From a virus: a DNA stretch of 64,000 bases. The translations under genes were made by a program, and so were the position numbers. Within the stretch, counting starts at the first letter, position 1; every line of letters begins with the position of its first letter. Below, piece by piece: positions 12,830 to 16,526 of this stretch. The notes under the pieces were generated by a model that was not told the origin of the DNA, ran no database searches, and saw only the letters and a program-made list of their open reading frames with translations. Location: IMG/VR virus record IMGVR_UViG_3300010399_000031, positions 179,404 to 243,403 of that record; one strand, 5' to 3'.

Positions 12830-13369
12830 ATGCTCACAATCGTCGAGCATCATTCTAGCAGTTATGGTCCAAGGACGTTTCATAACGCAAAAGCTGCTGA
12901 TTTGACAGTGGCCATTGCGGTGGATTACTCCACATTTGGTGAAAAGCTCACCATGAAAGCGGCAGGCTCGCACTTTATCGCTTGTCCGTTTAAGACGGAT
13001 GCTTTAACCAATGCCAGAGAGCTTTATAAGTCGCTGTACCGCTGGCGTGCCTCAGTACTCAATGTGGCCGGTAACGGGATGTCTACGTTTGTCAAACATG
13101 ACGTAACGCAAGAACAAGTGAATCAGTACATCTTTGATATCCTCTCGACTGTGCACAAACATTACCCTCTAGCTGGGATTGTATCTGGGGGTCAAACGGG
13201 TGCCGATATTGCAGGTGCAGCCGTGGGGTACAAGTTGGGCATTGCTACGACTGTGACATTGCCCCATGGGTTTAAACAGCGCGATACAACAGGTGTCGAT
13301 AGCAACCACACTCAAAAAGAGATTCGCCAGCAGATCCTTGATTTCGCAGAGAAAATTTACGCTGCGTGA
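12830..13369 (+). CDS. SLOG-superfamily-like nucleotide-binding protein
   Basis: 179 aa. Residues 115-150 contain GIVSGGQTGADIAGAAVGYKLG followed by PHGFKQRD. The SGGQTGAD loop followed by a helix and PxGF is the signature of SLOG/YpsA-like and putative molybdenum-carrier-like Rossmann proteins, which bind nucleotides or their derivatives. The N-terminal 100 residues are less typical (a beta-rich AVDYSTFGEKLTM segment). In phages, SLOG proteins may handle signalling nucleotides or NAD derivatives; the substrate is unknown. It is the last gene before the long RNA-rich region. Confidence 0.7.
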   Translation: MLTIVEHHSSSYGPRTFHNAKAADLTVAIAVDYSTFGEKLTMKAAGSHFIACPFKTDALTNARELYKSLYRWRASVLNVAGNGMSTFVKHDVTQEQVNQYIFDILSTVHKHYPLAGIVSGGQTGADIAGAAVGYKLGIATTVTLPHGFKQRDTTGVDSNHTQKEIRQQILDFAEKIYAA

Positions 13370-13860
13370 AATAATGTGCGAGAAACCATTGATGCGCAGT
13401 GTAGAGCCAGTGTACCCAGCTGAGGGAGAGGGGTTAAGCAGCTGGGGCGACTTGACACATGCTGATGCCCTCCATCATCATCGATGTTTCTGGGTAATAC
13501 CACTGCACGGCTGCGGTGCAGGCGCATGGGCGAGGGGTATCCACTCCCGGACGGAGAGTCTAGACAGTATAGGCTTTGTTGGGTTCGAATCCCAACCTTG
13601 GCCTCAGCGACAGCAGAAGGATTGTGAGGAAGGCTAGGGAATCGATGATCCCAGCAGCGAATACCCCGTTTGCTGCCGAGTCGTAGTAACTGATCCTCGT
13701 GATGGGACGAGGTGTTGGTTGGCTCATTGCAGGTTCAATTCCTGCCCTTAACCTCGTTTTCTTTAGACCACTTAAGTGGCACATTGTTGGGTCTCGCCTT
13801 CACTGTTTCACTCCTGGGCGACTGCCATGACTTGACGATGCGCCAACCTAAGTAGTTTCT
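13370..13860 (+). ncRNA. Candidate structured RNA with tRNA-like T-arms
   Basis: No convincing gene. The stretch holds several perfect helices: CTGCAC/GTGCAG (13503-13508 with 13516-13521), GCAGC/GCTGC within 13654-13678, and CCTCGT/ACGAGG (13695-13700 with 13707-13712). Two T-arm-like hairpins occur, TTGGGTTCGAATCCCAA near 13577-13593 and GCAGGTTCAATTCCTGC near 13727-13743; each is followed by CCTTnnCCTC. GAGGGGTTAAG near 13428 can close the region by pairing with CTTAACCTC near 13747. ACGAGGT at 13707 can also pair with ACCTCGT near 13751, so two folds compete. No complete canonical tRNA could be drawn here. Confidence 0.45.
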
Positions 13861-13869
13861 TGTAGTAGA

Positions 13870-13954
13870 CCCGAGGTAGCTCAGTCTGGTAGAGCGGCGT
13901 CTGTCCGGCCGGTAAAGACGCAGGTCGGTGGTTCAAATCCATCCCGAGGGGCCA
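13870..13954 (+). tRNA. tRNA with expanded anticodon loop
   Basis: 85 nt with encoded CCA (13952-13954). The D-arm GCTC/GAGC, anticodon stem GCGTC/GACGC, variable AGGTC and T-arm GGTGG-TTCAAAT-CCATC are all in place. Two features are odd. The acceptor stem CCCGAGG/CCGAGGG has a tandem G-A/A-G mismatch in its middle. The anticodon loop has 15 bases instead of 7, as if eight bases (a CCGGCCGG palindrome) were inserted. The isotype cannot be assigned. It may be processed, act as a pseudo-tRNA or be a decoy. Confidence 0.75.
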
Positions 13955-14013: not shown

Positions 14014-14304
14014 ATGTTGTATTTGAAAGTAATGTCGAATGAAGATTTACCGGATACCGATCCGCTTAAGGATTTCAGCATCATTCCGATCAATAACACT
14101 GATCGATTGGTGTTTGTGAAGGACCAGTCTTATCCTGAAACGGATGTGCACTGGTGTGCGCTGATTGGTCCTCACGCAGGGTCGAACCAGGATGGATTTG
14201 ACATTCCCAGTCACGACAAAGACCGAGTGGTCCCCTTAACTGGCAACGCCTATGTTTTGAACGAGCAAGGCAAAACCATCGCCAGTCACGGTGTCGTGAA
14301 ATAA
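14014..14304 (+). CDS. Small hypothetical protein
   Basis: 96 aa, not recognised, starting at ATG 14014 (another ATG six codons later is possible; neither has a strong site). The sequence is acidic and mixed, with TDRLVFVKDQSYPETDVHWCALIG in the middle. It sits between the tRNA and a long structured, gene-free stretch. Confidence 0.55.
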   Translation: MLYLKVMSNEDLPDTDPLKDFSIIPINNTDRLVFVKDQSYPETDVHWCALIGPHAGSNQDGFDIPSHDKDRVVPLTGNAYVLNEQGKTIASHGVVK

Positions 14305-14940
14305 AGCTGTCTGATGAGCCGTGCAAGTCGGCAGATGAGAATCCAATACACGCGATACCTCGCCGCGTGTGGATTTCGTCGGGTGCAAAGCCCACGAAAT
14401 AACGAAGATCACATCGTGTGTCTTGGAAGGACCTCACGGTGGTAGGCCAGATTGCTTAGGACGTCGATGAGCCACTTTGACCGGTGGTGTCCCGAGAGCA
14501 TCTACCTTTTAGATCTTCGTGATTACAGCGGGCGCGCGATGCGTCAAGTTGTGACCTTCTAACCGAATGGAGGAAGGACGCAGCCTGTAAGAACCTATCT
14601 GGGTGAAAGCAGACACCCGTGGACTGACCTCCACGTGAGGTAACGACTGGTCAGAATCGTTATCGAAGATTTAGGTATCTTACGGGGTGCGGAAGTTATG
14701 AATCCGAACCGATGCCTCGCCGGCATTCGCCGAGGAGGGAGTCGCTTGATTCCCTCCTCACACTAGCCTTCATCTTCCCGCAGCTTCGAGTCACACCACC
14801 ATTCGTGTTCGGCAAATCCGAGCGAGTTGGGGCAATGTGCCTAGGCTGCGGGAAGATGTGGGTTGGTCGACCTTGCATCGATGCGCTTTGAGTTGATGGG
14901 TCATGGGAAGAGGGGCGGGGGAGGGCTAAAGCTCTCCCCC
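14305..14940 (+). ncRNA. Candidate large structured non-coding RNA (about 630 nt)
   Basis: There is no convincing gene on either strand. Many perfect helices support a folded RNA: a 14-bp stem from 14771-14784 with 14845-14858 enclosing about 60 nt; GAGGAGGGA 14732-14740 with TCCCTCCTC 14751-14759; AATCC plus ACACGCG (14340-14354) with CGCGTGTGGATT 14364-14375; TTCGT/ACGAA directly after it; TAACGA/TCGTTA and CGTGGA/TCCACG around 14620-14665. A terminator and TATG end it at 14917-14954. Size, structure and the nearby tRNA recall the phage-borne ROOL and GOLLD RNA classes, but no class motif was identified. Confidence 0.6.
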
Positions 14941-14954
14941 AATCCTTATTTATG
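14917..14954 (+). terminator. Terminator hairpin with TATG
   Basis: GGGGGAG/CTCCCCC stem (14917-14940), then an AT-rich run and TATG at 14951-14954. It ends the structured RNA stretch. Confidence 0.75.
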
Positions 14955-14980
14955 CCGGAAAAAAAGGATGAGATAAGAAA

Positions 14981-15436
14981 ATGAAATACTGGATTGATGC
15001 AGAATTCAACTCATACGGGGGTCAGTTGATTTCCCTTGGAATGGTGCGTGAAGACAATGAAAGTCTTTACCTGGTGTATAACCGACCGATGCACATTCAT
15101 CCCTGGGTGAAAGAGCATGTGATGCCGTATTTGGATTCAGTGCCAGATCATATTTCGATTCATCGGATCTTTCCCTCCAATTCAGCTAAGTACATCGAGA
15201 AGTTTATGGCGAGTGATGACAATCCTATCGTTATCACCGATTGGCCTGATGATATCTCGTTTTTCAGTGAGCTTCTTCTGACGGGGCCGGGCACGATGAT
15301 CAACATTCCACGGATATCATTTCGCATGCATCGTATAGATGCTTACCCCACGAAAGTCGAAGGTGCGGTGCAGCACAACGCCTGGTGGGATGCCGTGGCT
15401 CTGAAAGCTAAGTGCGAGGAGCTTGGCTTGGAATAA
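14981..15436 (+). CDS. DEDDh 3'-5' exonuclease (DnaQ/RNase T-like)
   Basis: 151 aa. The exonuclease core is visible: Exo I WIDAEFN with Asp6 and Glu8, the Exo II Asp at 87-90 in VITDWPDD, and Exo III QHNAWWDAVAL with His132 and Asp137. The short size and the DAEF...GGQLISLGMV start resemble small DnaQ-fold exoribonucleases of the Rv2179c-like family. It would remove nucleotides from 3' ends of RNA or DNA using two metal ions. Flanked by two candidate large RNAs, it could trim their 3' ends; that link is inference from position. Confidence 0.8.
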   Translation: MKYWIDAEFNSYGGQLISLGMVREDNESLYLVYNRPMHIHPWVKEHVMPYLDSVPDHISIHRIFPSNSAKYIEKFMASDDNPIVITDWPDDISFFSELLLTGPGTMINIPRISFRMHRIDAYPTKVEGAVQHNAWWDAVALKAKCEELGLE

Positions 15437-15990
15437 AGTAAAAAATACACCACTTTCTATTATATGCGAGAGTGCTCCGCCACAGTGGACGTCCGCCTTA
15501 ACGCTTTCTCCTTTCTGGCGTTTTAGGTCGATGACTGCAATGTTGTATCGATTGGTCGAGCACAATTTTCGCAAGCCGGAGTCGTTGTCCGGACGCGCTA
15601 ACTTTCCGTGTAGGCGCGAGAGCCTGGTTTCCGACACTTACTGGGATAGCGCCCGGCGTCGGATAAACGGAGCGGGTGGAGCTACGCTAGGCTCCATCAA
15701 GTTGTACGCATGAGTGACAGGTCGACGGCCACCCAGGAGTTCTGGTAGCCTGATAGATCGACCACCTACGGGACGCGGAGGTGCTTCCTCCAGAACACCG
15801 GTTCGCGCATCCCGACTCGTTCACTCACTGAGCGCGCAGCCTGCAATGCTGTTAGGACTGAATTCGAATAGGTCTTGATAGCATTGTGGGATGCTCGTTC
15901 GAAACGCAGATCCGCTAGTCGATTCACCAAACGACTCCACGCGCTAGGGAATTGACAATCGAACTAGGGTTTTGCTTTCGCGCATCGGTG
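15437..15990 (+). ncRNA. Candidate large structured non-coding RNA
   Basis: No convincing gene. Perfect helices include TCCGAC 15630-15635 with GTCGGA 15658-15663, TGGAGC 15677-15682 with GCTCCA 15691-15696, GGTCGA 15720-15725 with TCGACC 15758-15763, and GTTCTGG 15739-15745 with CCAGAAC 15790-15796. The last two cross, which indicates a pseudoknot. A T-loop-like hairpin surrounds TTCGAAT near 15862. The stretch ends in a strong terminator at 15996. It may be a second member of the same RNA class as 14305-14940 or an independent RNA. Confidence 0.55.
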
Positions 15991-15995
15991 TGGTA

Positions 15996-16021
15996 GGGGT
16001 GGCTTCGGCCACCCCGCTATG
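15996..16021 (+). terminator. Terminator hairpin with TATG
   Basis: GGGGTGGC, TTCG loop, GCCACCCC (15996-16015), then TATG at 16018-16021. Confidence 0.8.
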
Positions 16022-16049
16022 CCGTCGTTTAAATGACTTAGGGACCATC

Positions 16050-16526
16050 ATGGACTTTCTCTACCACGGCTCAGCCTTTAAACAAGACGAATTGAAACCT
16101 GGCTTTCACCACACCGGTAAGAAAGTCAATTGGGATCAAACGGAAGCGAACATCTGGCTTTACGCCACTACGCTCCGAGAAGAAGCTATTAGCCTAGGTT
16201 TTGCTTCAGCAGTGGAAAAGCAGTACGATGTGAAGCGCTACCACACGGAAGGCAAAGACATTCACTTCGATGTAAGAAAGGGCGAGACACTCAAACCACA
16301 TGAGCTGAACGAAATCAAAGTTTATCTGTACACGATACAGTATGATAAACGTGATGGCTGGGTGAAAGTGAACAACCAGTTTAACGGGATTGACCAAGAG
16401 TACAAGACCACCCATGTCATCAAAGAGAACCTCTTTAAACGAGAGGAAATCAATGTTGAGCAATGGTTGAAAGACAAGAACTTAACCATCGCTACTGAGA
16501 GTATGCCGATCTGGGCAAAGTGGTAA
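16050..16526 (+). CDS. Possible ADP-ribosyltransferase-fold protein
   Basis: 158 aa from ATG 16050. The opening FLYHGSAFKQDELKPGF and the following IWLYATTLREEAISLGFAS resemble the first two motifs of a broad ART-like superfamily (YHGS/T ... vYAT ... A), in which the His and Tyr hold NAD. The third catalytic Glu is not certain; the REEIN segment near residue 135 is one option. It could modify host proteins or RNA, as ADP-ribosyltransferases of other phages do. The match is by motif shape only. Confidence 0.5.
   Translation: MDFLYHGSAFKQDELKPGFHHTGKKVNWDQTEANIWLYATTLREEAISLGFASAVEKQYDVKRYHTEGKDIHFDVRKGETLKPHELNEIKVYLYTIQYDKRDGWVKVNNQFNGIDQEYKTTHVIKENLFKREEINVEQWLKDKNLTIATESMPIWAKW

Follow-up and report, generated by a model that had tools for sequence, protein, structure and literature searches.

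A candidate family of large structured RNAs with a hammerhead-like 5' domain in nucleus-forming jumbo phages

Introduction

Two families of large phage RNA, ROOL and GOLLD, are among the described systems that come closest to the locus reported here. In PMC12286853, ROOL appears as a large ornate phage RNA that is often encoded near tRNAs, GOLLD as a large phage RNA near tRNAs that is better conserved in its 3' part than in its 5' part, and both as RNAs that form RNA-only multimeric cages. Small self-cleaving RNAs also lie beside phage tRNA genes: the Theta ribozymes of gut phages adopt an HDV-like fold and are thought to process tRNA ends (PMC10879173). As for hammerheads, one survey discarded matches without a 10.1-11.1 pair and reported core insertions near C3 (PMC3088659).

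Here we describe a putative RNA, RNA-1, encoded in a 64-kb stretch (the window, to which all unlabelled coordinates refer) of a 243-kb virus record. Like ROOL and GOLLD it is a large phage RNA near a tRNA gene, but it matches neither Rfam model, has a body core of its own (AAGUUGU...GCAGCCURYA) and carries a ribozyme-like, specifically hammerhead-like, 5' part. With the Theta ribozymes it shares a small putative self-cleaving domain in the vicinity of tRNA genes, but its fold is hammerhead-like and the domain is attached to a large RNA. It follows type I hammerheads, which are open at stem I, in the order of stem I, CUGAUGA, stem II, GAAA, stem III, U16.1 and H17, and its three stems covary. 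By contrast, in the RNA-1 family 4-62 nt of linker precede a second T-loop hairpin and a C, all inserted before G12 and outside the consensus, its stem III may hold 100-200 nt, and the Rfam hammerhead models do not match it.

Results

The list of open reading frames contains no convincing gene in 14305-14980, between an ORF that ends at 14304 and the next that starts at 14981, in agreement with the initial annotation of a gene-free region of about 630 nt. The upstream ORF (14014) has its stop codon 2 nt ahead of RNA-1, which ends just short of ORF 14981. The plus strand of 14305-14945 has a minimum free energy (MFE) of -290.6 kcal/mol compared with a mean of -226.7 for shuffled sequences (z -8.0; 0 of 20 shuffles as good). 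Since the minus strand, which also folds well, reaches only z -5.0 in the same test, the plus strand is the likelier RNA strand.

The predicted fold contains a closing helix with three hairpins (14587-14683), and the complementary loops CUGACC (14624-14629) and GGUCAG (14649-14654) form a kissing pair that remains a candidate, since this pairing does not vary. Further downstream are a long hairpin of 28 nt (GAGGAGGGAGUCGCUUGAUUCCCUCCUC, 14732-14759) and, within 14771-14858, the 14-bp helix already noted in the initial annotation, formed by 14771-14784 with 14845-14858 over a folded loop of 60 nt. The likely 3' end is a terminator-like hairpin (14917-14940) with a T-tail, AATCCTTATT, reaching 14945. 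This element had been called a strong terminator; the hairpin is present, but the T-run is weak and shuffled sequence yields about as many terminator-like sites. At gathering thresholds, Rfam matched only the tRNA in the region around 14305-14945, and a search of 2.7 kb with the limit relaxed to an E of 5 gave weak unrelated matches only, with neither the ROOL nor the GOLLD model among them. Membership of either family, whose setting the region had been said to resemble, is thus not supported by sequence models. Group I and group II introns, an RNase P-like RNA and twister-sister were considered and dropped because their cores did not fit and Rfam support was absent.

A homologue was reached through the flanking exonuclease-like ORF (14981-15433). 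This locus, L002, lies on a 245-kb viral contig and holds the whole region at the same genomic place, with 81% identity over 682 nt. To avoid circularity, the fold was predicted from the window alone and then applied to L002. Of 228 predicted pairs, 66 have a changed base in L002; L002 retains 39 of these, 21 of them because both partners changed, and loses the other 27. When random letters were placed at these positions, about 19 pairs were kept (about 10 by double change) and 47 broken, and 0 of 2000 trials did as well. RNAalifold on window and L002 returned 20 double-compensated pairs. At the level of single elements, the 14-bp helix is identical in L002, the 28-nt hairpin is kept through one-sided and two-sided changes, and the terminal hairpin is compensated. 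Helices broken without compensation, which would speak against a functional RNA, were sought in L002 and not found. The compensated pairs indicate that the secondary structure of RNA-1 is under selection, and the comparison bears out the earlier proposal of a helix-rich large RNA. The evidence supports a structured RNA of large size that lies close to a tRNA and outside known classes, and the lack of an Rfam match, the homologues and the compensated helices agree with the earlier suggestion that the class may be new.

No motif of a known class had been recognised in this region. RNA-1 does lie outside the Rfam classes, but a hammerhead-type 5' domain had been overlooked: the 5' third (14306-14529, plus strand) has the anatomy CUGAUGA...GAAA...UH amid stems I, II and III. 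From 5' to 3', the plan common to the loci compared is stem I, CUGAUGA, a T-loop-like stem II hairpin, the linker, a second T-loop-like hairpin, C, GAA, A15.1, stem III, U16.1, H17 and stem I. In the window, stem I pairs GCUGU (14306-14310) with ACAGC (14525-14529), and the two strands covary across 14 loci. The next strand is the predicted catalytic-core strand CUGAUGA (14311-14317), which fits the hammerhead consensus CUGANGA and served as a search seed, so that its constancy is partly imposed. Stem II (14318-14332) reads GCCG-UGCAAGU-CGGC, and its stem covaries among loci. Between it and G12 lie a linker with an extra helix (14333-14380), which shows compensatory changes between window and L002, and hairpin 2, GGG-UGCAAAG-CCC (14381-14393), whose GGG/CCC covaries to AGG/CCU. 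Pairing and adjacency assign G12-A13-A14 and A15.1 to 14396-14399. Stem III (14399-14523) joins 14399-14410 with 14512-14523, with one mismatch at 15.3, and encloses about 100 nt that fold into a domain; the helix sequence differs per clade and L002 keeps the fold, stem III being imperfect in both window and L002. Self-cleavage is predicted 3' of U17, between 14524 and 14525.

Stem I occurs in the versions GCUGU/ACAGC, GCUCU/AGAGC, ACCC/GGGU, UCCCG/CGGGA, UCGCA/UGCGA, GCGGA/UCCGC, ACUGU/ACAGU and AUCUG/CAGAU, and stem II as GCCG/CGGC, ACGG/CCGU, GUGG/CCAC, GCGG/CCGC, GGGG/CCCC and CCGG/CCGG. The stem II loop has the consensus U[GU]C[AG]AGU and the loop of the second hairpin UGNAANG, while the linker contains a helix in some loci and none in others. 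Stems I and III join the core flush, without extra bases, and the 15.1-16.1 pair is A-U in every locus save L067, where it is G-C. Position 17 is U, A or C and in no locus G; U, the letter in the window, is a slower choice among classical hammerheads.

How far this conservation can be trusted depends on the searches. Our seeds were CUGAUGA, parts of the loops and CGAA, and their constancy is therefore partly imposed, whereas no letters were fixed in the stems, the joints, the 15.1-16.1 pair or position 17. A composite alignment built from 14 loci has standard pairs in 95% of its pair cells, and 14 of 17 pairs changed on both sides (5/5 in stem I, 3/4 in stem II and 5/5 in stem III). Covariation in this alignment is 0.741, against 0.200 when shuffled (reached in 0 of 500) and at most 0.144 with slid partners. 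The 3' partners in the alignment were chosen by eye, and an automatic search was run alongside. Under strict rules it found the identical solution in 12 of the 14 loci; the window and L002 failed because of the stem III mismatch. Shuffled downstream sequence reached the score of the window in 9 of 2000 cases, and 13 loci summed give a log10 p of about -25, which is overstated since relatives are not independent. Out of sample, stems I and III fitted L086-L089, which had been found by seed alone, and did not fit protein-coding chance matches.

A pairing of 10.1 with the C before GAAA was rejected. Position 10.1 instead covaries with the stem II hairpin (G-C, A-U, C-G), which makes the second hairpin an insertion between stem II and G12. 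In canonical hammerheads stem II closes at the core with an N10.1-N11.1 pair and nothing separates its 3' strand from G12; here linker, hairpin and C intervene, and we therefore file the domain as a hammerhead-like variant, not as a canonical member. The Rfam hammerhead models matched neither the window (E up to 5), nor L065, L067 and L075 (E up to 10), nor Pseudomonas phage PaBG, L081 and L082 (E up to 1). This variant probably works like a hammerhead. In the MFE structure of the window, UUUCGU (14374-14379) of the linker pairs with the core segment ACGAAA (14394-14399), which would hide the GAAA strand. In L002 and FLC9-type RNAs, UUUCGU/UUCGU can likewise pair with ACGAAA/GCGAAA and mask the core. 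In these modelled folds the UUUCG/CGAAA pairing may act as a switch, or it may be a sign of weak or lost cleavage here.

The hammerhead-like module was found at 18 loci. Searching a phage collection with the nucleotide sequence of the whole region returned short pieces only. Burkholderia phage FLC9 (LC667451, 322 kb) has the first 28 nt nearly unchanged within a 507-nt annotation gap, close to a neighbour gene that is also found at the locus of the window. Scanning with the 5' sequence added L064, L065, L066, L068 and L067 from viral contigs (L065, L066 and L068 on contigs of 310-315 kb) and L075 from genome contigs. Gapped seeds added L078/L080/L081, L079 (phage PaBG, KF147891), L082, L086, L087, L088 and L089. 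A single genuine element occurs in each of 11 jumbo genomes, a tally that leaves aside one extra seed match in G004, and a reversed-pattern control gave 0. Beyond the known loci, a relaxed seed, CTGATGAGNCNTNCNAGTNGNC, returned protein-coding chance matches only. One-mismatch seeds in phiKZ, 201phi2-1, PhiPA3, Phabio, Viktualia, LucasX, DT01, FLC8 and SURPRISE13 hit mostly at control frequency, and the three sites inspected, in FLC8, PhiPA3 and phiKZ, look coding; the ribozyme seed search gave no convincing element in the well-studied relatives phiKZ, 201phi2-1, PhiPA3 and Phabio.

Several loci depart from the common arrangement. Compact modules occur at L075:1229-1362, on a contig catalogued under a Thaumarchaeota MAG and near a Gp37/Gp68-like phage gene, and at L067:4320-4400, where the module stands alone about 15 nt 5' of a small ORF and may act as a 5'-UTR element too. 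In L088 (minus strand, 1.8-2.2 kb), stem III surrounds about 210 nt, and downstream of it a terminator-like hairpin takes the place of a body. SURPRISE13 has a gene-free gap of 788 nt (L084:1743-2528, minus strand) with a T-loop2/GAAAC piece like that of PaBG, without CUGAUGA, and with a tRNA-like sequence on the opposite strand.

Downstream of the ribozyme-like domain, bodies share a pair of motifs, AAGUUGU and, 15-150 nt further on, [GA][CU]GCAGCCU[GA][CU]A (in short GCAGCCURYA), and otherwise differ. In the window the pair is AAGUUGU ... CGCAGCCUGUA (14546-14589, plus strand). It is present at ten loci (window, L002, FLC9, L064, L065, L066, L068, L086, L087 and L089), and nowhere else in the 0.97 Mb of sequence searched nor in one shuffle, apart from the second RNA described below and its L002 counterpart. 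The body of L086 was located by the pair as already defined elsewhere, 334 nt from the ribozyme and with the pair spanning 46 nt. Unpaired copies of CGCAGCCTGYA in G002, G006, G008 and FLC9 look like chance matches in coding regions. The module lacks the body pair in L088, PaBG, L078/L080/L081, L082, L067 and L075, and Xanthomonas jumbo phage LucasX (L156, MW825358, ~174,650-174,800) has the pair AAGTTGT...TGCAGCCTACA without the ribozyme seed. Module and body are thus separable parts.

A second large, structured, gene-free RNA, RNA-2, is predicted at 15437-16025 on the plus strand (z -4.6). It has the body pair (15699-15845) and a terminal hairpin (15996-16015) and is without a hammerhead core. 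Its L002 counterpart carries the body pair too, and 142 nt (15567-15707) are 92% identical there. RNA-2 is preceded by a promoter-like motif, TATATGCG, and a similar one, TATGCG, occurs 5' of the ribozyme in L086, L087 and L089; TATG is reported in late promoters of phiKZ-type polymerases. The initial annotation had passed over RNA-2 as well as the link to nucleus-forming jumbo phages.

That link comes from gene content. All ten tested genomes with the large-domain element, the window's included (nine of the ten with a body), encode a homologue of PhiPA3 gp53 (E 1e-9 to 1e-42), which we take to be ChmA, the shell protein of the phage nucleus. In the same ten genomes this gene adjoins an RNA-polymerase subunit (E 1e-55 to 1e-101). 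Neither a gp53 homologue nor an RNA-polymerase subunit was seen in PaBG and two smaller phage contigs.

Genes for tRNA lie near the element in the window, L002, PaBG, L078/L080/L081, L082 and L088. The tRNA that had been noted beside the region is a tRNA-like gene with an enlarged anticodon loop (13870-13951, plus strand), detected by the Rfam tRNA covariance model (39.9 bits) and not by ARAGORN. Its anticodon loop contains an 8-nt palindrome, CCGGCCGG, which is either an assembly error or a real insertion; minus the palindrome the loop would read tRNA-Asn(GTT), a tRNA that L002 has nearby. A further gene-free segment of 149 nt (13487-13635) is 93% identical in L002, conserved above the neighbouring proteins, and includes a T-arm-like hairpin, GTTGGGTTCGAATCCCAAC; neither Rfam nor ARAGORN matched the segment. 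Conserved neighbours beside the RNA in several relatives are 12830-13366 (phrog_10774, annotated as a putative molybdenum carrier in some phages) and 16050-16523 (phrog_13483). Flanking genes vary among FLC9, L064-L068, L087 and L089. At most a few nt separate the start of the RNA from an upstream stop codon in the window, in FLC9 and in the L064-L068 group, and the RNA may therefore be excised from a longer transcript.

Discussion

We consider it likely, though short of assured, that 14306 to about 14945 (plus strand) encodes one large structured non-coding RNA of about 640 nt in a nucleus-forming jumbo phage, with a hammerhead-type variant as its 5' domain and a body released by cleavage. 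The conserved structure, the hammerhead geometry with its covariation and the family distribution are established above; that RNA-1 is transcribed and cuts itself, that its body is set free and that this body has any role is inferred. RNA-1 would be made as part of a transcript that starts upstream or at a phage promoter, and its 5' domain would fold and cut after U14524. After the cut, the body would begin with a 5'-OH at 14525 and extend for about 420 nt to the terminator near 14945, freed from the mRNA/tRNA transcript. This body, whose family is marked by AAGUUGU...GCAGCCURYA, is probably active in infection as a folded RNA.

The 5' domain might instead be a rigid junction with a hammerhead fold that no longer cuts, leaving the RNA as one piece of about 640 nt. 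We think this unlikely: it would account for the masking of the core by UUUCG/CGAAA pairing when the window, L002 and FLC9-type RNAs are folded computationally, for the imperfect stem III of window and L002 and for the similar T-loop2/GAAA piece without CUGAUGA in SURPRISE13, but loss of cleavage should bring drift, and every jumbo-phage copy keeps the core letters, A15.1-U16.1 and a letter other than G at position 17. Rather unlikely, too, is a role in the processing or stabilisation of the flanking mRNAs (ORFs 14014 and 14981), in which the ribozyme would split messages and the body shield an end. Hammerheads between phage genes have been proposed as transcript splitters (PMC3088659), and the RNA fills the gap from 2 nt past the upstream stop to the next ORF. 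The flanking genes, however, vary between phages, and a function that resides in the RNA is favoured by the length of the body (more than 400 nt), by the conserved motif that the body has of its own and by a ribozyme-free paralogue.

A divergent ROOL or GOLLD RNA would share phage origin, size, tRNA neighbourhood and candidate kissing loops with RNA-1; we regard it as very improbable, as neither Rfam model matched even at the relaxed threshold and the descriptions of the two RNAs consulted (PMC12286853) name no hammerhead domain. That the helices arose by chance in G+C-rich DNA and form no RNA at all would suit the well-folding minus strand, yet the compensatory changes and the conserved motif pairs leave this explanation next to no weight. 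Within the preferred reading of a large RNA with a cleaving 5' domain, a more speculative extension, which we hold doubtful, is a gated, naturally allosteric hammerhead: the double T-loop insertion and the UUUCG/CGAAA helix would switch cleavage, and a ligand, tRNA or RNA partner would time the release of the body. T-loop motifs of this type dock on tRNA elbows elsewhere.

The sequence comparisons point to the RNA-1 family as a new family of large phage RNAs. With it, nucleus-forming jumbo phages would possess a conserved RNA of large size, undescribed as far as the databases and the open-access PubMed Central papers searched go. The insertion between stem II and G12 would widen the tolerance of the hammerhead core, and the arrangement would link a self-cleaving RNA to large ornate phage RNAs. 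As the family includes isolated phages, with the whole element in Burkholderia phage FLC9 and the module also in Pseudomonas phage PaBG, these proposals are directly testable.
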